DNA from: Candidatus Acidiferrales bacterium
Lineage (GTDB): Bacteria; Bacteroidota; Ignavibacteria; Kryptoniales; JAKASW01
Assembly (NCBI GenBank): GCA_035515795.1
Contig: DATJAY010000024.1
Coordinates: 1 to 33,059, forward strand
DNA: 33,059 nt
Direction: 5' to 3'
Positions 19,726 through 33,059 of the stretch are shown in pieces. The notes below the pieces were generated by a model. The model ran no database searches and was not told where the DNA came from. It was given only the letters and a program-made list of their open reading frames with translations. The position numbers and the translations under genes were made by a program. Numbering within the stretch: the stretch's first letter is position 1; each line of letters begins with the position of its first letter.

Positions 19726-21117
19726 TCAGAATCTCAGCGTGAACACCGTTTCTTTATCTTGAATTGAATGAACTGTAATCCCGCCCTTATGTGCCCGCAT
19801 TATCTGACGTGCAAGACTTAAGCCGATGCCGGAGCCTTCCTTGCGGGTTGTGAAGAAAGGAATGAAGATTTTTTCCTGCAGCTCTTCCGGAATGCCGTGG
19901 CCGTTATCTATTACCTGGATTATCGTTCCACCATGGCTATCAATCTTACCGAATAGTTTTATCATAGGTGACGCAGTCGAAGAGAGAGCGCTGATCGAAT
20001 TGAGTACCATGTTGATCAAAACCTGCTCGATCAAATCGGGGTCGGCGGTTAACTCCAAATCAGGCGGATCCGCCGAGCAGGTATACCATATTTTTCTCAG
20101 ATGAAACCGGTCTGCAAATAATCTGTCGATTCTGCCAAAAAGATCCATCAACTTAATCGTCTGGAAATTGGGGGTCGGAATGCGGGTCAGGTTTCTATAG
20201 TCGTCCACGAAGTGAAGCAAACCTTCGCTTCTTTTCGAAATCGTATCTAAAGCACCTTTCACGTCTCGCAGGTTTTCTCCGTCCAGCTGTCCCGGACCCT
20301 GCAATGCACCTCGGTCCGGTTCCCGGTCATTTTTGGTTTCCGGAGTTATGGCGGTATTCAGCAGCGCGCTGGCAGTCGACGAAAGCGAAACAATCGGCGT
20401 CACGGAATTCATAATTTCGTGTGTCAGCACACGAATAAGGTTCTGCCATGCTTCCATCTCCCTTTCTTCGAGCTCGCTCTGGATGTTGGTCAATGAAACC
20501 AAGGTGTAATGATTCTCTTTTAGTTTGAACTCCGTTGCATAGATGGATAACTGTGACAACTCGTTTTCCGCCGTAATTTTCACAAGTACCTTATCGCCTG
20601 ACTTTATTTCTCTCAATACAGCGACCAGCGACGGGCTGACGCGGGACAACTCAGAGATATTATCGACCCCGTTCACTTTCAGCAGCCTTTTTGCCGCGGT
20701 ATTCATTAGTTCCACGTTTCCATCTTGTGTGAAAGCCATGAGACCGATGCCGACGTGCTGAACGACAATTTGGAGATAGCGATAATGTTCCTCCTTTTCT
20801 GCCCGAGCTTTTCTGAATTCCTCGATGACTTCGGAGAATGCGTTGTCAAGCTCCTCAAACGATGATCCTTTAATAGTTGGTCGGAAGCTTTGAGAGAAGT
20901 CTGAATATTTAATCGAGTCGAAGAATCGTGCAATTTCACGATTGGTTTTTTGAGCATAGTGGATCAATGAATAGACTTGTGCGATAACAAGGAGAGCGAC
21001 TATGAACGGGGTCGCGATGAAGTTGGTCTTGGTGAGAATGTATACGAGAATGAAAGCTGAGAGGCAGATAAAAACGGTTCTGACAAATACGGCTACGCTG
21101 AATCTTCTAAAGATCAT
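19726..21117 (-). CDS. Sensor histidine kinase, partner of the NtrC-type regulator
   Basis: A 463-residue membrane histidine kinase. Two transmembrane helices (about 8-28 and 32-52) are joined by only a few residues, so there is no periplasmic sensor domain. A HAMP-like segment (~53-105) and a PAS-like domain (~112-212, HVGIGLMAFTQDGNVELMN) follow. The H-box is LTHEIMNSVTP with phospho-His233; the N-box is at Asn373 (INMVLNSISAL); G1 is DNGHGIP (404-410); G2 is GSGIGLSLARQIM (428-440). A Gly/Asp-rich insert lies at ~258-285 before the second dimer helix. It starts 39 bases after the regulator gene, on the same strand, and is probably co-transcribed with it. The likely signal is membrane or cytoplasmic stress. 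Confidence 0.94.
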   Translation of the reverse strand: MIFRRFSVAVFVRTVFICLSAFILVYILTKTNFIATPFIVALLVIAQVYSLIHYAQKTNREIARFFDSIKYSDFSQSFRPTIKGSSFEELDNAFSEVIEEFRKARAEKEEHYRYLQIVVQHVGIGLMAFTQDGNVELMNTAAKRLLKVNGVDNISELSRVSPSLVAVLREIKSGDKVLVKITAENELSQLSIYATEFKLKENHYTLVSLTNIQSELEEREMEAWQNLIRVLTHEIMNSVTPIVSLSSTASALLNTAITPETKNDREPDRGALQGPGQLDGENLRDVKGALDTISKRSEGLLHFVDDYRNLTRIPTPNFQTIKLMDLFGRIDRLFADRFHLRKIWYTCSADPPDLELTADPDLIEQVLINMVLNSISALSSTASPMIKLFGKIDSHGGTIIQVIDNGHGIPEELQEKIFIPFFTTRKEGSGIGLSLARQIMRAHKGGITVHSIQDKETVFTLRF

Positions 21118-21156: not shown

Positions 21157-22533
21157 TTACAATCCATATTTTTCCAGTCTCCTGTACAACGCTGCACGCG
21201 TAATTCCTAATTCCTTGGCTGCCTTCGTGAGATTTCCGTCGTGTTTGCCCACAGCTTTTATGATGAGCATCTTTTCGGTTTCTTCAAGATGGAAATTGTT
21301 GATCGTGGTTCCTTCGGATTTTGCTTCTCCGCGCAGAAGGAGGAAATCTGTAGCTTGGAGCGTGTCGGATTCGTCCATTATTACGGCTCTTTCAAGTGTA
21401 TGCTGAAGCTCTCTGACATTTCCAGGCCAACCATAACTCCTTAATTTACTCAAAGCTCCATCACTCAGCAACTTTTGTTTCCTGTTGTATTTCCTGCAAT
21501 ACATTTTCAGAAAATGATCGGCCAGCAATGGGATGTCTTCGGTTCGTTTTCTCAGAGGAGGAATGTGAATCTCGACCGTATTGATGCGGTAAAGCAAATC
21601 CTGTCTGAAGCGGCTGTCAGATTTCAGCTCAGAAATCGGAAGGTTGGTTGCACACACCAGACGGATATCGATCGGTTTTGGAATATTTGCTCCAAGTCGT
21701 GTTACCTGCCTGTTTTGAAGTACCGCGAGGAGCTTCACCTGTAAATTCTGAGTGAGATTCCCGATTTCATCGAGGAAAAGAGTTCCACCGGTAGCAATCT
21801 CAAACCGACCCGGCTTATCTTCCTTTGCGTCAGTGAACGCGCCCTTCATGTATCCGAAAAGTTCACTTTCAAAAAGTGATTCGCTTATGGCGCCCATGTC
21901 CACGCTTAGAAATATTTGTTCATTCCTCTCCGATTGTCTGTGAATTGCCCGGGCCACCAACTCTTTGCCCGTGCCATTTTCTCCAAGGATCAACACATTT
22001 GCATCTGTCTTTGCTACCTTTTGAATGTCCTTGAATACTTTTCTCATTTCTTCGGAAGTCCCGATTATATCATGGAACTGGCTGTCGAGGTCGCAGGTAA
22101 GCTGCTTCTGTTTGGAAAGAAGATCTTCAATTTCTTTTTTCGATTCGCTGAGTCTCATTGCCGAGGAAATGGTCGCAAGAAGTTTCTCGTTCTGCCATGG
22201 CTTCAGCACAAAATCCGACGCCCCTTCTTTGATCGCTTTGACTGCCATCTCGATATTTCCATAGGCAGTGATAAGCACGACGACAGACGAACGATCAATA
22301 TCGAGGATTTTTTTCAGCCAGTTGAATCCCTCCGTCCCGCTTGTTGCGTCTCCTGAAAAATTCATGTCCAGGAGGATAACATCATATCGCTCATCTTTCA
22401 TTATGAGAGGGACTTGGTTTGGATCTTTCTCGATGCGCACTATGGAATAATGCTGCTTCAATAAAAGGCGAGCGGAGTATAAGATGTCCTCATCGTCGTC
22501 GATGATCAGGATTCTGCCGGATTTAGTGGTCAT
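21157..22533 (-). CDS. NtrC-family sigma-54-dependent response regulator
   Basis: A 458-residue activator. Numbering from the ATG at 22533: receiver with DDDED at 12-16, phospho-acceptor Asp56 (VILLDMNF), Thr89 (LITAYG) and Lys111. The AAA+ domain has Walker A GENGTGKE (184-191), the sigma-54 contact loop as GAFTDA (231-236) instead of GAFTGA, Walker B LFLDEI and arginine finger RFRQDLLYR. The Fis-type HTH is TKAAKELGITRAALYRRLEK at the C-terminus. Another in-frame start (TTG) lies nine bases earlier. It drives sigma-54 holoenzyme open-complex formation. The divergent ABC operon carries a sigma-54 promoter and tandem sites that fit as its target. Confidence 0.95.
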   Translation of the reverse strand: MTTKSGRILIIDDDEDILYSARLLLKQHYSIVRIEKDPNQVPLIMKDERYDVILLDMNFSGDATSGTEGFNWLKKILDIDRSSVVVLITAYGNIEMAVKAIKEGASDFVLKPWQNEKLLATISSAMRLSESKKEIEDLLSKQKQLTCDLDSQFHDIIGTSEEMRKVFKDIQKVAKTDANVLILGENGTGKELVARAIHRQSERNEQIFLSVDMGAISESLFESELFGYMKGAFTDAKEDKPGRFEIATGGTLFLDEIGNLTQNLQVKLLAVLQNRQVTRLGANIPKPIDIRLVCATNLPISELKSDSRFRQDLLYRINTVEIHIPPLRKRTEDIPLLADHFLKMYCRKYNRKQKLLSDGALSKLRSYGWPGNVRELQHTLERAVIMDESDTLQATDFLLLRGEAKSEGTTINNFHLEETEKMLIIKAVGKHDGNLTKAAKELGITRAALYRRLEKYGL

Positions 22534-22623
22534 GGTTTCCAATCTTCAATGCATTTACTCAAAAGTCATTCCTGAGAAATGAGTCAGTCACGTTTGATTT
22601 TGCCGTTCTTGCTGAGGTTCGTC

Positions 22624-22661
22624 GTTCATTTTCGAACAGTACCGTTCATTTTCGAACAGTC
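22624..22661. promoter_or_regulatory. Tandem upstream activator sites (two 18-bp repeats)
   Basis: CGTTCATTTTCGAACAGT occurs twice, identical, at 22624-22641 and 22644-22661, with a 20-bp period, so both lie on the same DNA face. Each contains the dyad GTTC-N6-GAAC, as Fis-type HTH dimers recognise. They end 79 bp before the sigma-54 promoter and lie between the regulator gene and the efflux operon, the classic enhancer layout. Confidence 0.72.
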
Positions 22662-22740
22662 AAACTTTGCAATAAAAATCGAAATAAGCAAATCTAGTTT
22701 GAAATGCGACAATATTAGCGAAGAATGTGATTGAACATAA

Positions 22741-22755
22741 GGGCACGACAATTGT
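22741..22755 (+). promoter_or_regulatory. Sigma-54 (-24/-12) promoter of the ABC export operon
   Basis: GGGCACGACAATTGT matches the consensus TGGCACG-N4-TTGC, with GG and G(T) correctly 10 bases apart; departures are the first T and the final C of the -12 element. Transcription would start near 22766, giving a ~52-base leader before the adaptor ATG at 22819. Confidence 0.7.
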
Positions 22756-22818
22756 GATTTCATTGACATGAACAAATTGGATCAATCCGAAATAGTCGAT
22801 TCGAATCAAAGGTTCACG

Positions 22819-24069
22819 ATGGATAGGAAAATAGAAAAGAAGCCGTTCTACAAACGGAGACTGTCCTGGATTTACGCCGGGGGCGGCGCGCTATTTCTGT
22901 TCCTGATCATCTTAATAATTTCTGATACCGGAGCAAAGCTGAATGTCGAAGCAGACAAGATCACCGTCTCGACTGTGGCGGAGGGCGATTTCCAGGAATT
23001 CATTCCGGTGACCGGGAATGTCCTTCCGCGTACGACTTTTTATCTCGATGCAATTTTAGGCGGCATAGTCGAGAAAAAATTTGTCGAAGAAGGTGTAATG
23101 CTGAAGGAGGGGGACAGGATCTTACAGCTGTCCAATACGAATGTTCAACTCAGTACGCTCCAGCAGGAGACGTTTGCATATCAGCAGATCAACGATGCGC
23201 GGAACACGAGATTGCAGATTGAACAGAATAGCAATGGACTACAGAATGCTCTCGTATCGGCAAATTATGCGGTGATAAATGCAAAGGAGATATTTGATCG
23301 TCAGTCTAAACTAAAAGAAAAGAATTTGATCTCACAGCAGGATTACGAGCTGGCGGAGAACAATTATCATCTTGCGGCGGAGCAGCAGAAATTGGCTTAT
23401 CAAAATTTCTTCGCGGATTCCATTCAGAGACAATCTCAATTGACGCAGATAGCCTCGTCAATCGAGAGGCTGCAAAAAAATCTCGAGCTGATAAGGGAGA
23501 ATATAGAGAACCTCACTGTCAGGGCCCCGATTAACGGACAACTAACCTCTTTAAATGCCGAGACAGGACAATCAAAAAATCCCGGGGACCAGATCGGGCA
23601 GATAGATGCCTTGGATGGCTTTAAGGTCAGAGCGGACATCGACGAGTTTTATATTGCGCGGGTGATGAAAGGGCTGCATGCTTCGGTGGATATTGATGAA
23701 AAGACGTTTACTCTTTCAGTGACAAAAGTCTATTCGGAAGTGACAGGGGGCAAATTTCAGGTCGACATGGAATTTGACGGCAAAGTGCCTGATGGAATTA
23801 GACGAGGCCAGACGCTTCAAATAAGACTGCAGCTGAGTGAGCGGACAAAAGCTCTTTTGTTGCCGCGTGGAGGATTTTACCAGAAGACTGGCGGACAATG
23901 GGTATTTGTGCTCAATAAGTCAGGCAACACCGCTGCAAAGAAAAGCATAAGCCTTGGTCGCCAGAACCCCGATTACTTCGAAGTGCTGAGCGGGCTGAAT
24001 CCGGGAGACAAAGTTGTAACTTCGTCTTACGACAACTTCGGGGACGTGCAAGAACTGATTCTGAGGTGA
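22819..24069 (+). CDS. HlyD/MacA-type membrane fusion (adaptor) protein
   Basis: A 416-residue periplasmic adaptor for an ABC exporter. A short basic cytoplasmic start and one transmembrane helix (about 17-36, GGGALFLFLIILIIS) anchor it. A lipoyl half follows (PVTGNVLPRTTFYLDAILGGIVEKKFVEEG...LKEGD), then a long helical hairpin (~95-215, Gln-rich coiled coil), the second lipoyl half (VRAPINGQLTSLNAETGQ), and a beta-barrel and membrane-proximal end (GGFYQKTGGQWVFVL, LSGLNPGDKVV). The ATG used has AAAGG six bases upstream; an earlier in-frame ATG at 22768 would sit at the predicted transcription start with no ribosome site. First gene of the sigma-54 operon; the permease follows after 7 bases. 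Confidence 0.92.
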   Translation: MDRKIEKKPFYKRRLSWIYAGGGALFLFLIILIISDTGAKLNVEADKITVSTVAEGDFQEFIPVTGNVLPRTTFYLDAILGGIVEKKFVEEGVMLKEGDRILQLSNTNVQLSTLQQETFAYQQINDARNTRLQIEQNSNGLQNALVSANYAVINAKEIFDRQSKLKEKNLISQQDYELAENNYHLAAEQQKLAYQNFFADSIQRQSQLTQIASSIERLQKNLELIRENIENLTVRAPINGQLTSLNAETGQSKNPGDQIGQIDALDGFKVRADIDEFYIARVMKGLHASVDIDEKTFTLSVTKVYSEVTGGKFQVDMEFDGKVPDGIRRGQTLQIRLQLSERTKALLLPRGGFYQKTGGQWVFVLNKSGNTAAKKSISLGRQNPDYFEVLSGLNPGDKVVTSSYDNFGDVQELILR

Positions 24070-24076
24070 GGAGAGA

Positions 24077-26455
24077 ATGTTCGGAAATTATTTGAAAATA
24101 TTCCTGAGAAACATGAGGAGGCACATAGGATATTCCATCGGCAATATTTCCGGATTGTCCGTAGGCATGACCGCATGTTTCTTCATCCTCATGTTTGTCC
24201 GCTACGAATTCAATTGGAACGATAGCAATGAGAATCTTTACCGCACTTATAGGGTTCAACAGAAAGTCTTCTTCAAAAACAGCACCGAGATTTATTGGCA
24301 AACTGGCTACAGGTTGGCTTCCGAGTTGAAAAGTCAAATTCCTGAAATAGAAAACGCGGCCACGGTAGGAGACGTCTGGGGAGAATACCTCTCCACTTCC
24401 GACAAGCTTACTTTTAACGAGAAGCACGGCTATTACGCCGACGATAATATCTTCAGGATTCTGACATTTGATTTTATTCACGGAGACCGTGATAAGCTAT
24501 TATCTACGCCATACTCGGTGGTCATTTCGAAAGAACTTGCCGACAAATACTTCCCCGGTGAAAATCCGCTCGGCAAAACTATCAAGGCGTCTAAGAATAA
24601 ATCGCTCAAAGTGACGGGCGTGTTCAGGAATTTGCCGTCCAATGACGATTTCCGCCCGGATTATCTTGTCTCCTTGTCCACATTCAGGGAGGTGACGGAT
24701 TGGAAAAAGTACGATGCACTCGTGAACATCGGCGCGGCCGATTTCTCGACTTACATCACGCTGAAATCGAATACATCGGCAGAGGTTGTTGACAAGAAAA
24801 TTTACAATTTCGCCGACAAGTTTGTCGTCAACAATTATAAGAAACTGTACCTCAAGCCGTTGTCGGAGCTTCATCTCAAGGCCGATGAAAGGAACGACAT
24901 CGAAATGGCCTTGTACTACATTAGTGGTTTTGCAGTTTTCGTTCTGGTGCTCGCATGCATCAACTTCATCAACATGGCAACCGCAAATTCCTATTTAAGG
25001 AAAAAAGAAATCGGCGTGCGCAAGGTTGTCGGTGCGTCACGGTCCACTCTCTTTGTTCAATTCATTGGCGAATCATTGATCTTCTCATTCATCTCGCTGT
25101 TGATAGCATCGATGCTGGTCGAGATTTTCCTGCCGTATTTCAATGCTGTCGTTCAAAGGCAAATAGAAATAAGTGTGAGCCGTGATATAGGTTTCATCCT
25201 TGTCATGATTTCTGCGTTCCTGATCACCGGCATTCTGTCAGGTATATACCCCGCGCTGTACGTTTCAAGTTTTCGTGCATCACAGGTGATAAAAGGAGAC
25301 CTTTCTTTATTCAAACAGGCGAGGCAAGGCTCTTCAAAAACCTTTTTGAGAAAGTCGCTCGTTACATTTCAGTTTTGCATTTCGATTGCGCTGCTTATAG
25401 GTACTGTTTACGTCGTCAGGCAGGTGCATTACATGAAGACCAAGGACCTGGGATTTGAAAGACAAAATCTCCTTGTCTGTCAGGTGTTTGGTCAAAGCAG
25501 CAGCGGCAATTTCGAGATCTTACGGAATGAGCTCTTGGGCAATCCCAATGTTGTCGATGCTGCGGTCTCGATAAACTCTCCGTTCCATGGAGATTGGGAA
25601 AAAGAAATCAATTGGGAAGGAGCCGCCCCGAATGATAGAATGAGCATAAACTACAACTCGGTCGACTACAATTTCATTGGCACTTATGAAATGAAGATGG
25701 TGCTCGGCAGGAATTTTTCAAGACAATTTCCATCGGACGACAAAGCATGCATTATCAATGAGACTGCATGGGAAATGCTCAAGTGGGAAAATCCACTAGG
25801 AAAGAGAATTGATGACAATAAATACACCGTGATCGGCGTCGTTAAAGATTTTAATCCTTATTCCGTCCACGAGAAGATCCCGCCATATTATATGACGTTA
25901 AAGGCGGATCGACTCGATGAAGCAGGCATCTTTGCTGTGCGAATCAAGCCCGCCGACAAGGAGAACACTGTCTCGTTTGTCAAAGCACAGTTCAGCCGTT
26001 TTTTCTCCGATGCGATCATTGACGTCGGAGATTTTGACAGCGGCATAGATTTAGGAACAAAAAGTGTTTGGGAGGTAGTCGAGAAGGTATTCATCGGCTT
26101 CGGAATCATCGCTGTACTAATTGCCGCAAACGGAATGTTCGGAATGATTTCTTTCGCATCCCAAAGAAGGATGAAGGAAGTCGGGATTCGCAAAGTTTTC
26201 GGCGCTAACATCCCGCAGCTTTATCTAATGATGTCGAAGGACTTTGCTTTTCTTCTTCTTTTCTCTTCACTGTTCGCTTTCCCTTCGGGATATTTGGTGT
26301 TGCGTACGACGCCGGGGGCGTATAAGTACCAGCTGCAGTCCGTGGATTATTTGATCTGCATCGGAGTAATGGTCCTGACTGCACTGGCGGCTTCGGTCTA
26401 CCACACGACGAAGGCCGTTTTTTCAGATCCCGTAAAAACACTTAGGTATGAGTAA
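24077..26455 (+). CDS. MacB/FtsX-type ABC permease 1
   Basis: A 792-residue permease without ATPase domain. An N-terminal membrane helix (about 20-40, after FGNYLKIFLRNMRRHIGYSIGN) is followed by a large periplasmic MacB-type domain. The first FtsX domain has helices near 280-300, 335-357 and 372-395 and the loop EIGVRKVVGAS (~311). After a link helix (430-450), a second periplasmic domain leads to the final FtsX domain with helices near 670-692, 723-743 and 757-775 and loop EVGIRKVFGAN (~700). These duplicated FtsX proteins are typical of FCB exporters and work with a LolD-type ATPase and an adaptor, moving substrates mechanically. AGGAGA precedes the ATG. Substrate unknown. Confidence 0.94.
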   Translation: MFGNYLKIFLRNMRRHIGYSIGNISGLSVGMTACFFILMFVRYEFNWNDSNENLYRTYRVQQKVFFKNSTEIYWQTGYRLASELKSQIPEIENAATVGDVWGEYLSTSDKLTFNEKHGYYADDNIFRILTFDFIHGDRDKLLSTPYSVVISKELADKYFPGENPLGKTIKASKNKSLKVTGVFRNLPSNDDFRPDYLVSLSTFREVTDWKKYDALVNIGAADFSTYITLKSNTSAEVVDKKIYNFADKFVVNNYKKLYLKPLSELHLKADERNDIEMALYYISGFAVFVLVLACINFINMATANSYLRKKEIGVRKVVGASRSTLFVQFIGESLIFSFISLLIASMLVEIFLPYFNAVVQRQIEISVSRDIGFILVMISAFLITGILSGIYPALYVSSFRASQVIKGDLSLFKQARQGSSKTFLRKSLVTFQFCISIALLIGTVYVVRQVHYMKTKDLGFERQNLLVCQVFGQSSSGNFEILRNELLGNPNVVDAAVSINSPFHGDWEKEINWEGAAPNDRMSINYNSVDYNFIGTYEMKMVLGRNFSRQFPSDDKACIINETAWEMLKWENPLGKRIDDNKYTVIGVVKDFNPYSVHEKIPPYYMTLKADRLDEAGIFAVRIKPADKENTVSFVKAQFSRFFSDAIIDVGDFDSGIDLGTKSVWEVVEKVFIGFGIIAVLIAANGMFGMISFASQRRMKEVGIRKVFGANIPQLYLMMSKDFAFLLLFSSLFAFPSGYLVLRTTPGAYKYQLQSVDYLICIGVMVLTALAASVYHTTKAVFSDPVKTLRYE

Positions 26456-26519
26456 TCCCTTGTCGGATTTTTATTTGAATCAAGAATACTATATAACTGC
26501 AATTAAGTTTAGGAAAACA

Positions 26520-27320
26520 ATGCAAGTAAAACGAAATATTCTTACTGTCATCTTATGTATTGCACTTATCACAATTTCTAGTTGCACCAGAAACTCATCA
26601 TCGCCGATCGGCGCTGTCCCGGAAAATTCGATCGGGATGGTTTACGTCACCGGCGGGACTTTTCAAATGGGCAGCAATTCCGGATACTCGGATCAAAGAC
26701 CCGTTCACTCTGTAACGCTGAGCAACTTCTATATTGGCAAGTACATCGTAACGCAAAAAGAATGGCGCGATGTCGTGCAGTGGAAACAGGGGTCTTCTAC
26801 ATCTCCACTCATGCCCGATCCAAGTTATTTCAAAGGAGACAATTTGCCGGTGGAGCAAGTGGATTGGAATGAAGTTCAAACATGGATCTCGTACCTCAAT
26901 GAAAAAGAAGGAACGACGAACTACCGTTTGCCTACCGAAGCAGAGTGGGAATATGCCGCGCGGGGAGGCAACCGAACCAAGGGTTATGTCTTTAGCGGGA
27001 GCGACAATGCAGACGATGTAGCATGGCATGACTCGAATGCAGGAGGACGAACACATGCCGTTGGAACGAAACTTCCCAATGAGCTCGGGATTTACGATAT
27101 GAGCGGCGATGTCTGGGAGTGGTGTTCCGATTTCTATGGCGGTCCATATTCTAATAAATCTCAGTATGATCCTACGGGAGCGACAAACGGTGAAAGCAGA
27201 ATCCTGCGAGGTGGGTCATGGAGCAACATCAATTCCGTCTGTGTCTGCACCTTCCGTTATCCTGATTATCCGATTAACAGATATGCAGTATATGGCTTCC
27301 GTATCGCAAAAGATAAGTGA
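26520..27320 (+). CDS. SUMF1/FGE-fold lipoprotein in the export operon
   Basis: A 266-residue lipoprotein: signal MQVKRNILTVILCIALITIS with lipobox Cys22, then a formylglycine-generating-enzyme (SUMF1) domain. Domain marks: MVYVTGGTFQMGSN (~38-51), RPVHSVTLSNFYIGKYIVTQKEW, NLPVEQVDWNEVQTWISYLN, YRLPTEAEWEYAARGG, NELGIYDMSGDVWEWCSDFYG and RILRGGSWSNINSVCVCTFR...YGFRIAKD. The first of the two FGE catalytic cysteines seems kept in SVC, but the second is not at its usual spacing, so oxidase activity is doubtful; many such proteins bind ligands or act in export. The start is set by AGGAAAA and the lipobox; a longer frame overlaps the permease end. It sits between permease 1 and the ATPases. Confidence 0.9.
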   Translation: MQVKRNILTVILCIALITISSCTRNSSSPIGAVPENSIGMVYVTGGTFQMGSNSGYSDQRPVHSVTLSNFYIGKYIVTQKEWRDVVQWKQGSSTSPLMPDPSYFKGDNLPVEQVDWNEVQTWISYLNEKEGTTNYRLPTEAEWEYAARGGNRTKGYVFSGSDNADDVAWHDSNAGGRTHAVGTKLPNELGIYDMSGDVWEWCSDFYGGPYSNKSQYDPTGATNGESRILRGGSWSNINSVCVCTFRYPDYPINRYAVYGFRIAKDK

Positions 27321-27367
27321 GTCATATGTTGAATCGTTATTTAACGAAACAATTTGCTGGAGGCAAA

Positions 27368-28057
27368 ATGATACGTACTAATGGTCTCAAGAAAATCTAC
27401 ACGACAGAAGAAGTGGAAACCACGGCATTAGATAATGTAAACGTCGAAATTAAGGAAAAGGAATTTGTCGCAATAATGGGCCCATCCGGATGTGGAAAAT
27501 CCACGCTCTTGAACTTGATCGGGATGCTCGATAATCCGTCCGACGGTCAGTACTACTTTCTTGGCGAAGAGGTTTCAAAATATACGGAGAGGCAACGCGC
27601 CAATTTACGTAAGAAGAATATCGGTTTTGTTTTTCAAAGCTTCAATCTGATAGATGAGCTGACCGTGTTCGAAAACGTCGAGCTGCCTCTGCTTTATCTC
27701 GGAGTCTCATCCTCCGAAAGGAAGAGAATGGTCGAAGAGGTTCTTGAAAGGATGCAGATAATGCATCGAAGGGACCACTTTCCGCAGCAATTATCGGGCG
27801 GCCAGCAGCAGCGCGTCGCTGTCAGCAGGGCCGTGGTCGCGAAGCCGGCGCTCATACTGGCAGATGAACCGACAGGGAACTTGGACTCCGCAAACGGTGA
27901 GGAGGTAATGAATAGCTTGACCCAATTGAACGAGGGAGGAACAACCATCGTGATGGTCACGCATTCGCCACACGATTCGGAGTTTGCACATCGCATCATT
28001 CATTTATTTGATGGGCATGTCGTTACCGAAAATTACAAAGAAAAATTCCAGGTATAG
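27368..28057 (+). CDS. LolD/MacB-type ABC ATPase 1
   Basis: A 229-residue ATPase that powers FtsX-type permeases from the cytoplasmic face. Walker A GPSGCGKST (38-46), Q-loop FVFQSFNL, signature LSGGQQQRVAVSRAV, Walker B LILADEPTGNLDS and H-loop VTHSP are all canonical. The ATG is set by a GGAGG site seven bases upstream; the frame also opens 51 bases earlier inside the preceding gene's end. ATPase 2 follows after 12 bases, counting from the chosen ATG. With two ATPases and at least three permeases, pairings are not fixed by the sequence. Confidence 0.95.
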   Translation: MIRTNGLKKIYTTEEVETTALDNVNVEIKEKEFVAIMGPSGCGKSTLLNLIGMLDNPSDGQYYFLGEEVSKYTERQRANLRKKNIGFVFQSFNLIDELTVFENVELPLLYLGVSSSERKRMVEEVLERMQIMHRRDHFPQQLSGGQQQRVAVSRAVVAKPALILADEPTGNLDSANGEEVMNSLTQLNEGGTTIVMVTHSPHDSEFAHRIIHLFDGHVVTENYKEKFQV

Positions 28058-28069
28058 GAGGTGGAAGAA

Positions 28070-28732
28070 ATGATACGACTCAGAGGTATCGAGAAATACT
28101 ACACTAACAAGGTCATCAAGACGTACGTGCTCCGGAAAATCGACCTGGAGGTCAGAGAAGGCGAGTTTGTCTCGGTGATGGGACCGTCGGGATCCGGGAA
28201 GACGACGCTGCTCAATATTATCGGAATGCTCGATACGCCGTCGAATGGCGAATACCATTTCCTCGGTGAGCCGGTTCACGAGATGAAAGAGAAAAAACTG
28301 ACGGAGCTTCACAAAACTCATATAGGTTTCGTCTTCCAGAGTTATCATCTCATCGACGAGTTGACTGTTTATGAAAATCTCGAGACTCCTCTCCTATATC
28401 AAAAGGTGAAGGCAAGCGACCGAAAAGGAAGGGTTGCAGAGGCATTGGACAGGTTCAATATCGTCGCAAAGAAGGACCTATTCCCGAATCAACTGTCGGG
28501 TGGACAGCAGCAGCTTGTCGCAATTGCCAGGGCGGTTATCGCTGAACCGAAACTCATTCTTGCTGATGAGCCGACGGGAAATCTCCACTCTGAGCAGGGT
28601 AAAGAAGTAATGGACCTTCTGAAGGGATTGAACGAACAGGGAACTACAATAATCCAGGTGACGCATTCGGAGACCAATGCTGCGTATGGAAATAGGGTGA
28701 TAAGGCTGAAAGATGGGTGGATCGAGAAATGA
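28070..28732 (+). CDS. LolD/MacB-type ABC ATPase 2, altered signature and D-loop
   Basis: A 220-residue homologue of the preceding ATPase (Walker A at 38-46, FVFQSYHL, Walker B LILADEPTGNL, VTHSE). Two differences stand out: the signature reads LSGGQQQL (142-149), with Leu for the usual Arg after the third Gln, and the D-loop is NLHS with His173 instead of Asp. Both lie at the ATPase dimer interface. AGGAGG eight bases before the ATG fixes the start. It could pair with ATPase 1 as a degenerate partner in a heterodimer, or serve permease 2 alone. Signature and Walker residues for ATP binding remain, so it is not obviously dead. Confidence 0.94.
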   Translation: MIRLRGIEKYYTNKVIKTYVLRKIDLEVREGEFVSVMGPSGSGKTTLLNIIGMLDTPSNGEYHFLGEPVHEMKEKKLTELHKTHIGFVFQSYHLIDELTVYENLETPLLYQKVKASDRKGRVAEALDRFNIVAKKDLFPNQLSGGQQQLVAIARAVIAEPKLILADEPTGNLHSEQGKEVMDLLKGLNEQGTTIIQVTHSETNAAYGNRVIRLKDGWIEK

Positions 28733-28766: not shown

Positions 28767-31196
28767 ATGATCAAGAATTATCTGCGGGTCGCATTTAGAA
28801 ACCTATTGAACTATAAGGCTTATTCATTTATAAACATTGCGGGCCTTGCCGTCGGCATTGCTTGCTGCATAGCGATAATGCTTTTTGTCCGAGATGAGTT
28901 GAGTTATGACGAGTACAACAAATTTGCTGACCGGATATATAGACCACACCTTCTCCTCCGAGCGAACGGGCATGAAATGAATACGGCATTGTCTCCCGTT
29001 GCCATGGGTCCTGCAATCTATACAGATCTCCCGGATGTTGCTGCCTACACTCGGCTCATCAAGAGCGGTCCGACTGTGGTCCGATATGAGAACAAAACAT
29101 TCGTTGAAGAAAATCTTTTCGGGGCAGACTCGACAGTGTTCGATGTATTCACATTTCCTTTCGTGGTCGGAAATCCGAAGACTGCACTCATTCAGCCAAA
29201 CACGGTCGTAATCACTGAATCCATGGCACATAAGTATTTCGGTAATGACAATCCGATCGGCAAGATCCTCAATACGGGGAACCAAGACAAATTTGTCGTG
29301 ACCGGCGTTATCAAAGACATTCCCCAGAATTCACATTTACATCCAGATTTCATGGCTTCCCTCACTACATCGCAGGACAGCAGAAATCCTACATGGATAA
29401 GCAACAACTATTACACGTATCTTTTGCTCCGAAAGGGAGTAAGCCCAATTGAGTTTCAGAAGAAGTTGGATGACGAAGTCATGAAATATGCGAGTCCACA
29501 GCTGAAAGCCGTGGCTGGCTTTTCTCTCGAACAATTCAGGGCGGCTGGAAACAATTACGGATTAGTGCTGCAGCCTCTTACGTCGATTCATCTCAACTCG
29601 CACCTCGATTACGAGGTTGAGCCGAATGGTGACATTACGTACGTTTACATATTTTCTGCTATAGCTATAGCGATTCTGTTGATTGCATGCATAAACTTCG
29701 TAAACCTCGCCACGGCAAGATCTGAGAAGCGGGCGAAAGAGGTCGGCGTTAGGAAAACGTTGGGATCGGCCCGATCACATCTCGTCGGACAGTTCATGTC
29801 CGAGTCGATTGTGATAAGCTTTATCGCCGTGGTTTTGGCAATCGGTATAGTCGAACTCTTGCTTCCTTTCTTCAATCAGGTTGCTGATAAGAAAATGAGT
29901 CTCCACCTATTCAACGATCCATTATCATTACCAGTTCTTATTTGCTTCGCCATCGTGGTCGGAATCATTGCGGGAAGTTATCCAGCCTTCTACCTTTCGT
30001 CATTCCATCCTATCGACGTTCTGAGATCTGAAGTCAGGAAAGGAGGAAGGAAATCGTTACTTAGAAGCGGATTGGTGATTTGCCAATTTGCGATCTCGAT
30101 TGCCTTGTTCGCGGGAACCTTCATTGTCTTTGCGCAACTCAGATATGTCCAGACAAGAAACCTCGGGTTCGATAAAGAAGAGACTATCGTAATAGATAGA
30201 ACGAGCGATCTTTCCACCCAGCTCCAGTCCTTCGAAGATGAGCTGAGAACAAATAGAGGTATCGTAAATCTTACGAATTCAAATGCGATTCCAGGGAACC
30301 AGGGTGGGGACAATGGCTGCCGCTTAGAGGGTGCTCCAGAAAACCGGGTTGAAGACATCCAGCAAATGTTCTGCGATTATGATTTTGCAAAAACCTACAA
30401 GTTAGGGATCGCTGACGGGAGGTTCTTCTCAAAAGAACATCCTTCGGATAGCGCTGCTGTTGTGGTCAACGAAGAAGTTGAAAAGAGCTTCAACGCAAAA
30501 AACATCGTCGGGAGACATCTCGTTTTCCCCGGTAACGGCCCCGGAGGGACAGACCTAAAATGTGAGATAGTTGGAGTGGTAAAAGATTTCAACTACAGAT
30601 CCCTTCACGAGCCGATTCGTCCCCTGGCCATTCGATTATTTCCGAGACAAGCGTTCATCGGACGGTTCGTTACAGTTCGTCTGGCGCCGGGTGATCACTT
30701 GAGCACGATGTCCTTCATAGAAAACGTCTGGAAGAAGTATGCTGGAGATGAAGAATTCAGCTGCAACTTCCTCAACGATGACCTTCAAAAACTTTATGCA
30801 GCAGATCAGAGAACCAGTGAGATAGCCGGAGCGTTTTCGATCGTTGCAATTTTCATTGCGTGTCTCGGCCTTTTGGGTCTAGCTGCATTTGTCACCGAGC
30901 AGCGAACGAAGGAGATCGGGATACGAAAAGTTCTTGGTGCTTCGGTTGCAGAGATCGTCGCGCTTCTCTCGAAAGAATTTGTCAAATGGGTATTGATCGC
31001 AAACGTGGTCGCATGGCCCCTCGCTTACTATGTAATGAACAACTGGCTGAAAAACTTTGCTTACAGGACAGAGATCAGCCTCTGGATTTTTGTAGCGTCG
31101 GGTGTCGTGGCATTGGTGATCGCGTTATTGACGGTGAGTTCGCATGCTATGAGAGCGGCGACCGCAAATCCGGTGGAGGCATTACGATACGAGTGA
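28767..31196 (+). CDS. MacB/FtsX-type ABC permease 2
   Basis: An 809-residue permease of the same double-FtsX architecture as permease 1: N-terminal helix about 20-40 (SFINIAGLAVGIACCIAIML), SYDEYNKFADRIYRP, periplasmic domain, FtsX helices near 291-315, 348-368 and 386-408 with EVGVRKTLGSA (~325), link helix ~436-455, second periplasmic domain (NSNAIPGNQGGDNG region), and final helices near 690-708, 738-757 and 771-790 with EIGIRKVLGAS (~715), ending NPVEALRYE. Located 34 bases after ATPase 2. Likely a partner of one of the two ATPases and the single adaptor. Confidence 0.94.
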   Translation: MIKNYLRVAFRNLLNYKAYSFINIAGLAVGIACCIAIMLFVRDELSYDEYNKFADRIYRPHLLLRANGHEMNTALSPVAMGPAIYTDLPDVAAYTRLIKSGPTVVRYENKTFVEENLFGADSTVFDVFTFPFVVGNPKTALIQPNTVVITESMAHKYFGNDNPIGKILNTGNQDKFVVTGVIKDIPQNSHLHPDFMASLTTSQDSRNPTWISNNYYTYLLLRKGVSPIEFQKKLDDEVMKYASPQLKAVAGFSLEQFRAAGNNYGLVLQPLTSIHLNSHLDYEVEPNGDITYVYIFSAIAIAILLIACINFVNLATARSEKRAKEVGVRKTLGSARSHLVGQFMSESIVISFIAVVLAIGIVELLLPFFNQVADKKMSLHLFNDPLSLPVLICFAIVVGIIAGSYPAFYLSSFHPIDVLRSEVRKGGRKSLLRSGLVICQFAISIALFAGTFIVFAQLRYVQTRNLGFDKEETIVIDRTSDLSTQLQSFEDELRTNRGIVNLTNSNAIPGNQGGDNGCRLEGAPENRVEDIQQMFCDYDFAKTYKLGIADGRFFSKEHPSDSAAVVVNEEVEKSFNAKNIVGRHLVFPGNGPGGTDLKCEIVGVVKDFNYRSLHEPIRPLAIRLFPRQAFIGRFVTVRLAPGDHLSTMSFIENVWKKYAGDEEFSCNFLNDDLQKLYAADQRTSEIAGAFSIVAIFIACLGLLGLAAFVTEQRTKEIGIRKVLGASVAEIVALLSKEFVKWVLIANVVAWPLAYYVMNNWLKNFAYRTEISLWIFVASGVVALVIALLTVSSHAMRAATANPVEALRYE

Positions 31197-31284: not shown

Positions 31285-32028
31285 ATGAGACTCAGAGTTA
31301 TTGCTTCGGTTTTGCTGACGGTATTCTTTTGTGCCAATGCGCTTTTTGCCCAGACTTCCACTAAGAAGAAGATTTATATGGATCTTGCGCATGGGCAAAA
31401 ATTCTGGAACGATCCGGCAGGCATGATAAATGGGGCAGGAAACGATCTCGGCCGTGTAAAATATATGACCGATCAGTTCGTCAAAACGTCATCTTCTCTT
31501 AATGCGGAGCTTTTTTATTTGAAGAGCGTGATAAAACCGGAAGATTTGTCCAACTGTGATCTGCTCTATATCCATATCCCCTCGTCAAAGTATACTGCCA
31601 GCGAAATTAAAGCCATAACGCAGTATCTGAGTAAAGGTGGCTCGCTGTTTCTTGTGATGGACGAAGACTATTGGTCGACTCTCGAAGATGCGAATGTAAA
31701 TGATCTCATCAGACCGTTTGGAATACAATTCGGCAAAGAAAGTCCGGACTCGGCGGTAGGTGGATATACTAAGGCGGGTCTCATTACCGATGAATCTTTG
31801 AAAATTACATATCAGGTAGGAAGAACCATAAAAGGAGGTACGCCTTTCTGCTTCAACAACCAAACTGAGGAATATCCCTTCGGAGTTTTCAAGACATTGA
31901 CGAATGGCGGAAAAATTATCGTTATGGGCGATGGGATGACTTCGTTGTACATGACAAGCTGGAATGGAGTCAATGACTATCAATGTGCTGAATTTATGCA
32001 TGATGTATTCAAATGGCTTTTGAATTGA
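31285..32028 (+). CDS. Secreted GATase1-like (DUF4350/IFT52-type) protein
   Basis: A 247-residue exported protein. The signal peptide (MRLRVIASVLLTVFFCANALFAQ) is cleaved probably after LFA. The mature part opens KKKIYMDLAHGQKFW and then alternates strand and helix: LSNCDLLYIHIPSSKYTASEIKAITQYLSKGGSLFLVMDEDYW, and late GGKIIVMGDGM. This is the layout of class-I amidotransferase-like folds of the DUF4350/IFT52 type, which lack the catalytic Cys triad and are thought to bind sugars or partners. AAAGGAGG precedes the ATG. It lies between permeases 2 and 3 of the export operon, so it probably assists export on the periplasmic side. Family call is from pattern recall. Confidence 0.72.
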   Translation: MRLRVIASVLLTVFFCANALFAQTSTKKKIYMDLAHGQKFWNDPAGMINGAGNDLGRVKYMTDQFVKTSSSLNAELFYLKSVIKPEDLSNCDLLYIHIPSSKYTASEIKAITQYLSKGGSLFLVMDEDYWSTLEDANVNDLIRPFGIQFGKESPDSAVGGYTKAGLITDESLKITYQVGRTIKGGTPFCFNNQTEEYPFGVFKTLTNGGKIIVMGDGMTSLYMTSWNGVNDYQCAEFMHDVFKWLLN

Positions 32029-32085: not shown

Positions 32086-33059
32086 ATGCTGAAAAATTAT
32101 CTCAAAATCGCCTTTAGAAATCTTTCCCGTCACAAAGCATTTTCATTTATCAACATTGTCGGCCTGGCGGCGGGGATGGCATGTACCATATTGATTCTTC
32201 TGTGGGCGCAGGATGAATTGAGCTATGATAAGTTCTTCAAGGACGCCGACCATATCTATCTTGTGCTTCGCGGTGATCGCAGCGGGATGACGGCGGTTTC
32301 GTCTAAAATGCTTGCACCCGCGTTGAAGGAAGAGCTACCTGAGATTAGCAAAACAACGAGTCTCATGCAGCTCCCGACGGGTTTTGAATTTCTGATTCAA
32401 AACGGCGACAATGGCTTTGAAGAAAATGTATCGTTTGCGAGTCCCAGTTTCTTCGACTTCTTTTCTTTGAAACTCAAGGAAGGAAATCCTTACACAGCGC
32501 TTTCAGATCCGAACTCGATTGTCCTCGACGAGGAAATGGCGAAAAAATATTTCGGGAATGAGGATGCCGTTGGTCAGTCGCTCTATGCCTCTGCTTTTGG
32601 GCACAAGACCATGATGAAGGTGACCGGGGTTCTTGCAAAAATCCCACTGCAATCGCAGATTCGGACTCAGATTATTCTGTCTGAAGGGTGGTTTAAGACT
32701 ATCGGGATCGACTTCGACACCTGGTACGACGAGTCTCATTACACGTACATTGAGACCAAAGGTGACGCTGATTTTCAGAACCTCTCATCAAAGATCAGAC
32801 AATGCGAGATAAGACACTTTCCAAACCAGAACACGGAAAACCTGAGCTACTCGCTCCTTCCGCTCACAAAAGTTCATTTGTTCGGCGGCAACGTCAAGTT
32901 TCTTCAGGGTACGGGAGACATTGAGTATGTCCGGATATTCGTCGCTATAGCAATCGTCATTCTCCTGATAGCAAGTATCAACTATATGAATTTGTCCACC
33001 GCACTCTCTTTGAAGAGAAGGAAGGAAATAGCCGTCAAGAAAACAATTGGAGCAAGCAG
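32086..33059 (+). CDS. MacB/FtsX-type ABC permease 3 (cut by window end)
   Basis: The first ~324 residues of a third permease: MLKNYLKIAFRNLSRHKAFS, N-terminal helix about 20-40 (NIVGLAAGMACTILILLW), ELSYDKFFKDADHIYL, the whole first periplasmic domain, helix ~282-302 (IEYVRIFVAIAIVILLIASI) and the start of the FtsX loop (KEIAVKKTIGAS), where the window ends. GGAGG lies upstream; an out-of-frame ATG sits five bases before the start. Sequence divergence from the other two permeases suggests old duplications rather than a recent copy. The operon continues beyond the window. Confidence 0.93.
   Translation, partial: MLKNYLKIAFRNLSRHKAFSFINIVGLAAGMACTILILLWAQDELSYDKFFKDADHIYLVLRGDRSGMTAVSSKMLAPALKEELPEISKTTSLMQLPTGFEFLIQNGDNGFEENVSFASPSFFDFFSLKLKEGNPYTALSDPNSIVLDEEMAKKYFGNEDAVGQSLYASAFGHKTMMKVTGVLAKIPLQSQIRTQIILSEGWFKTIGIDFDTWYDESHYTYIETKGDADFQNLSSKIRQCEIRHFPNQNTENLSYSLLPLTKVHLFGGNVKFLQGTGDIEYVRIFVAIAIVILLIASINYMNLSTALSLKRRKEIAVKKTIGAS

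Follow-up and report, generated by a model that had tools for sequence, protein, structure and literature searches.

In two-component systems of the NtrC, ZraR and AtoC type, such as NtrBC-glnA, a kinase acts with an activator of REC-AAA+-Fis HTH architecture, and paired dyads are located about 100 bp upstream of the -24/-12 promoter; the same sites may serve autoregulation. The sigma-54 promoter consensus is TGGCACG-N4-TTGC (GG-N10-GC), and the transcript starts about 12 bp downstream of the promoter and is lost without rpoN. For most sigma-54 activators outside the Proteobacteria we know of no site, promoter or target. A kinase, an activator and paired dyads of this kind are likewise present at the locus described here, which differs in the GAFTDA loop of its activator, in having identical dyads with a 20-bp period, in its ABC export and orphan-permease targets, and in a kinase nearly without a periplasmic loop. 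Equivalog models all stayed below their cut-offs here.

In 2011, sigma-54 was argued to be a controller of the cell exterior (PMC3162934), and a computational survey from 2025 reported that, in Bacteroidia as well as further classes, sigma-54 promoters are enriched before genes for ABC permeases of the COG0577/FtsX-like kind, which was called first evidence (PMC12316311). The accessible text of that survey names no activator, enhancer or orphan-permease regulon, and makes no mention of Ignavibacteria. Our search of the open-access literature found no experimental precedent for sigma-54 with MacB or other ABC exporters in Bacteroidetes or Ignavibacteria, and no paper naming this activator, enhancer or orphan-permease regulon, all three of which appear to be new detail beyond the known link between sigma-54 and COG0577.

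Gene content and relation to known exporters

The window, which is the whole stretch of 33,059 nt that was analysed, contains a kinase-regulator pair and a divergently oriented export operon (Table 1). The regulator has the REC, sigma-54 AAA+ and Fis-type HTH domains of an NtrC-type response regulator, and its start is most likely ATG 22533 rather than TTG 22542, since orthologs align from approximately residue 4, which sets the divergent gap at 22534-22818. The GAFTDA loop, in place of GAFTGA, is shared with close relatives, while some Chitinophagaceae orthologs have GAFTGA or GSFTGA, with the T retained in every loop that could be located. A tree of 55 regulators places this protein in a strongly supported clade of its own, apart from eight other activators of the same genome. 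The kinase has two transmembrane segments near its N-terminus, joined by a very short loop, and an H-box of the HExxN type, a layout common to most of the kinase orthologs examined, with the segment calls being weaker in a few. Kinase orthologs that are 63–75% identical adjoin the regulator in relatives. With its two membrane segments and hardly any periplasmic portion, the kinase is likely to be an intramembrane sensor.

Table 1. Features of the kinase-regulator pair, the divergent gap and the export operon (positions in the window)
Feature	Position	Strand	Evidence and remarks
Sensor histidine kinase, C-terminal HATPase	19726..21117	-	PF02518, E=1e-19; H-box RVLTHEIMNSV (H at about residue 233)
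NtrC-type response regulator, REC - sigma-54 AAA+ - Fis-type HTH (GITRAALYRRLEKYGL)	21157..22533	-	PF00072, PF00158, PF02954
Candidate enhancer dyad 1, CGTTCATTTTCGAACAGT	22623..22640	+	Exact 18-bp copy; conserved in relatives
Candidate enhancer dyad 2, identical to dyad 1	22643..22660	+	20-bp period; conserved in relatives
Second conserved element, AACTT-N20-(T/G)CAAAT (minus strand: ATTTG(A/C)-N20-AAGTT)	22663..22693	-	Between putative enhancer and promoter; pairwise identity, 19 loci
Predicted sigma-54 -24/-12 element GGGCACGACAATTGTG (GG-N10-GT)	22741..22756	+	Relatives have GGCAY-N5-TTG(C/T/A) at corresponding positions
Periplasmic adaptor, HlyD/DarC-like	22819..24069	+	AAAGG before start; TIGR01730 above cut-off; DarC model NF038010 below cut-off
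Duplicated ABC permease 1, 2 x MacB_PCD/FtsX, ADOP/DarB-like	24077..26455	+	Profile matches
FGE-sulfatase-domain protein, GldK-like, inside operon	26448..27320	+	Profile matches
ABC ATPase 1, DarD/MacB-NBD-like	27317..28057	+	Profiles; 87-93% identical in relatives
ABC ATPase 2, DarD-like	28061..28732	+	Profiles; 84-90% identical in relatives
Duplicated ABC permease 2, ADOP/DarB-like	28767..31196	+	Profile matches
Third duplicated permease, cut by contig end	32086..33059	+	PF12704 at C24:32143-32802; N-terminus at 32086

The initial annotation had moved the start of the adaptor from ATG 22768 to ATG 22819, and this correction is borne out, as the alignment of adaptor orthologs begins with the residue encoded at 22819 (MDRxIEKKPFYKR; relatives mostly start with TTG or GTG), and the frame upstream of it shows no homology and is interrupted by in-frame stops in several relatives. 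The operon had also been described as MacB-type. Exporter genes are indeed present, and a MacA-like adaptor and MacB-like periplasmic core/FtsX domains are shared with MacAB-TolC, but the label is a loose one: MacB is an ATPase fused to a single four-helix permease unit, whereas here the ATPases are encoded separately and the permeases are duplicated and ADOP/DarB-like (792 and 809 aa, with two MacB_PCD/FtsX units each), a domain layout that rules out true MacAB identity.

The darobactin exporter DarBCD likewise has a separate adaptor, an ATPase and a duplicated permease of approximately 780–800 aa, and differs from the operon described here, which has two ATPases, several permeases and predicted sigma-54 control. 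The best NCBIfam models were DarC for the adaptor (199.6 bits against a cut-off of 450) and DarD for the ATPases (280 and 268 against 375), with DarB ranking second for the permeases (101 and 158 against 700), all of these scores being below the cut-offs. The ADOP permeases (TIGR03434) are also of approximately 800 aa with two MacB_PCD/FtsX units, and occur in arrays without an adjacent ATPase, as does the array on contig C11 described below; the scores of 275, 301 and 283 bits are below the TIGR03434 cut-off of 622.3 bits. That the exported substrate is an antimicrobial or membrane-active compound is a guess. The FGE-sulfatase gene overlaps the end of the permease gene by 8 bp and the start of the ATPase gene by 4 bp, and searches of the relatives' loci revealed no counterpart of it. 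A GldG-like protein with ABC_transp_aux/GIFT-type domains is encoded between permeases 2 and 3 (31285-32028).

Control region in the divergent gap and its conservation

The divergent gap contains two identical copies of GTTCATTTTCGAAC, and these agree with the initial annotation of two identical 18-bp sites with a 20-bp period, each with a GTTC-N6-GAAC dyad, about 80 bp upstream of the promoter (84 bp from dyad 2 to the GG). The two dyads are the sole occurrences of GTTC-N6-GAAC within the window. Pattern searches, on which all genome-wide site counts are based, gave three perfect matches to GTNC-N6-GNAC-N6-GTNC-N6-GNAC in the 4.08-Mb genome (G000), and zero matches to a reversed control pattern of the tandem site. 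Tandem matches with one mismatch in this genome showed no homology to operon genes, and were taken as chance.

GGCACG-N4-TTGT is matched once in the window, by GGCACGACAATTGT at 22742-22755, but as 0.24 matches are expected there by chance, this one is not significant by itself. The -24/-12 box proposed earlier is present, with a -12 doublet that is GT rather than GC, and this C to T change is likewise found in 8/13 tabulated promoters. The genome also encodes RpoN (PF04552 at C25:42639, RpoN box ARRTVTKYRE), which answers a check suggested with the initial annotation.

A sliding-window identity profile of 19 related loci, anchored on dyad 1, showed that the four half-sites are 77–89% pairwise identical, versus 25–33% (random level) in most of the flanking DNA. 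Ten further genomes of the genus encode full-length adaptor orthologs (73–78% identity), and the tandem dyads with their 20-bp period are present at 11/11 full-length orthologous loci of the genus (window included), as well as at 16 loci of close relatives in the genome collection, these being from Ignavibacteria/Kryptoniota and unclassified Bacteroidetes MAGs, with some representing the same genomes. Conservation of both tandem site and -24/-12 element at orthologous adaptor genes, which the initial annotation had proposed as a check, was found within the genus as well as in close relatives. Every member of the genus with an identifiable adaptor carries the tandem site. In genome G007 a contig end cuts the adaptor and the tandem site adjoins the regulator, while G005 is without the adaptor, the site and this regulator (best regulator 38% identity), yet has rpoN. 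The distance from dyad 1 to the GG of the -24 box is 116–119 bp in most loci, 138–196 bp in a few relatives and 96 bp in one, and that from the -24/-12 element to the adaptor start ranges from 48 to 384 bp. Since the half-sites and their spacing to the GG are conserved, while the flanks are random and the distance from promoter to start varies, the block is under selection as a whole.

Between the dyads and the promoter, AACTT has a pairwise identity of 0.80 and the surroundings of TCAAAT one of 0.58–0.69, versus a background of 0.25–0.33 (19 loci), with the 20-bp gap constant in most. This element is missing from the tandem sites at orphan permeases, and is a candidate for either a divergent promoter of the regulator gene or the site of a bending protein. 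The dyads probably also regulate the regulator's own gene, the likely promoter of which would abut them.

Rearranged loci bear on which genes the site serves. In G009, the regulator is located approximately 11 kb from the adaptor and no site adjoins it; the site remains next to the exporter, which suggests that the exporter is what it serves. In G010, a permease-containing stretch lies between the regulator and the adaptor. A separate tandem site accompanies the adaptor there, flanked by divergent -24/-12 elements, one for the adaptor and one for the permease. G010 and G007 have a second tandem copy beside the regulator, in which AACTT-N20-TCAAAT is intact and the -24/-12 element has decayed, and the retention of these copies therefore suggests that the site also serves the regulator gene. 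A kept regulator-side tandem site next to a decayed -24/-12 element is seen at L024 4555-4588 and L128 6857-6890.

Further permease loci, the predicted circuit and its alternatives

The other two perfect tandem sites of the genome (C11:279-312 and C3:120647-120680) both lie 95 bp before GGTATGTTT(C/G)TTGT, and the next gene downstream of each encodes a duplicated permease. The C11 site heads an array of at least three duplicated permeases without an adjacent ATPase, and five such permeases are encoded on C11. At the C3 locus (L028 8226-8495), the permease is a truncated remnant of approximately 90 aa that shares 62% identity with permease 2 of the window and still has the site and a -24/-12 element upstream. 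The three perfect sites coincide with the only three loci of the genome that encode duplicated permeases of approximately 800 aa, and loci with MacB permeases of approximately 400–450 aa in the same genome had no perfect tandem site. One further permease locus with a tandem site was found in G004. The proposal that every duplicated-permease locus in the genus has the site is false outside G000: the site is not universal at such arrays, since those of G001, G006, G008 and G011 are without it. The earlier view of a two-component pair dedicated to one operon was too narrow, as copies of this tandem site also precede other permease loci, both in this genome and elsewhere.

We consider it highly probable that the tandem dyads are the enhancer of the adjoining NtrC-type regulator, which would drive the export operon via sigma-54; the predicted circuit is very likely to be real because Bacteroidota-type bacteria in general retain this control element at the corresponding pump genes. 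The membrane layout of the kinase suggests that what it senses within the membrane may be an export substrate or some perturbation, upon which it would phosphorylate the regulator. An oligomer of the regulator would then bind the tandem dyads on one face of the helix and loop to RNA polymerase-sigma-54 at the -24/-12 element, where the AAA+ motor would open the promoter. Transcription is predicted to start near 22767, giving a 5′ leader of approximately 50 nt before the adaptor and the ATPase and permease genes. The same regulator probably also drives the C11 permease array and the truncated C3 permease locus. Counting against this model are the GT doublet at -12, the GAFTDA loop, the longer dyad-to-promoter gaps of several relatives, the weak and closer -12 box of the Bacteroidia, the site-free permease arrays of G001, G006, G008 and G011, and the single evolutionary change to which the covariation of HTH and site amounts.

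Alternatively, the dyads may mainly function as an autoregulatory operator of the regulator gene, with the export operon on another (housekeeping) promoter and the -24/-12 element incidental. The dyads do abut the conserved AACTT-N20-TCAAAT element, which may be a minus-strand promoter of the regulator, and G007 and G010 keep the regulator-side copy despite the decay of its -24/-12 element. However, the exporter-side -24/-12 element is conserved in all close relatives examined, the tandem site and -24/-12 element are also found at orphan permease loci without a regulator gene, and the G009 exporter keeps both with the regulator 11 kb away, all of which makes a mainly autoregulatory function very improbable. 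The genome has 25 PF00158 matches, approximately 16 of them near full-length, and neighbourhood is no proof of pairing, so that the sites could be bound by one of the approximately 15 sigma-54 activators besides this regulator. We regard this as very improbable, because regulator, site and exporter co-occur, regulators of this clade adjoin this site family across phyla, and the HTH type matches the site type, with a paralogous regulator having its own matching variant site.

Finally, the repeats might have arisen by chance, or might be conserved only through recent common descent; a single GGCAC-N5-TTGY match in 33 kb carries no significance by itself. Flanking DNA at the random level beside conserved half-sites in the same loci, and the absence of control matches in the genome, leave this explanation with a negligible probability; chance repeats are ruled out by the sliding-window identity and the control patterns.

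An enhancer bound by the adjoining regulator would offer a single hypothesis for permease genes without a neighbouring ATPase, and link them to membrane sensing by a kinase nearly without a periplasmic part. The putative regulon makes the finding more than a single promoter. Site, promoter and targets are predicted to the base, and the consensus carries to cultivable Bacteroidota (Mucilaginibacter, Hymenobacter and Chitinophagaceae). It would turn the statistical link between sigma-54 and COG0577 permeases (PMC12316311) into a testable regulator-enhancer-promoter circuit.

Orthologous and paralogous systems in other Bacteroidota

Orthologous systems were found in Chitinophagaceae, Mucilaginibacter and Hymenobacter, with adaptor identities of approximately 41–50% and the divergent kinase-regulator pair mostly kept. 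Many of these loci have a second type of site, GTATC-N5-CGNAC with a 22-bp period, for which the search expression matches approximately 1.5% of shuffled upstream regions. Whole-genome searches of seven such genomes detected extra sites, in Chitinophagaceae and Mucilaginibacter, before permease genes (L172, L174, L175 and L176) and ATPase genes (L165 and L166). In 18 tabulated Bacteroidia sites, TGG(C/T)AY is located 89–92 bp below dyad 1 (100–101 bp in Hymenobacter), with the L176 entry also using a nearer TGG(C/T)AY match at 46 bp. The putative T-rich -12 box of these Bacteroidia loci, including those at all six of these extra sites, is one base closer than in Ignavibacteria and the canonical spacing, and its G is weak.

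Regulators with a TRA(A/S)LYRRL helix are associated with GTYCG-type sites, and those with TRTALYRR(L/I) with GTATC-type sites. This covariation cannot be counted as many independent events, as the RA type forms one main group on the tree and thus represents approximately one event; being essentially a single change, it is supportive but not decisive. We tentatively suggest, as a possibility that we hold to be rather doubtful, that one ancient two-component/sigma-54 module, common to Bacteroidota, Ignavibacteriota/Kryptoniota and Balneolota, co-expresses scattered duplicated permeases that lack an ATPase with shared ATPases and an adaptor, the Bacteroidia spacing being TGGCAY-N4-TT instead of N5.

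A paralogous kinase-regulator-ABC locus is present in the eight genus members examined for it (L189-L196), where the regulator has a TRTALY helix (55–57% identity) and the sites are a GTATC-type tandem with GGCACA-N3-TTTGA; this locus was not found in G000 at comparable identity. At L189-L196 the kinase-regulator pair is divergent from an ATPase-permease operon, and in most of them a further AAA+ activator-like protein then follows.
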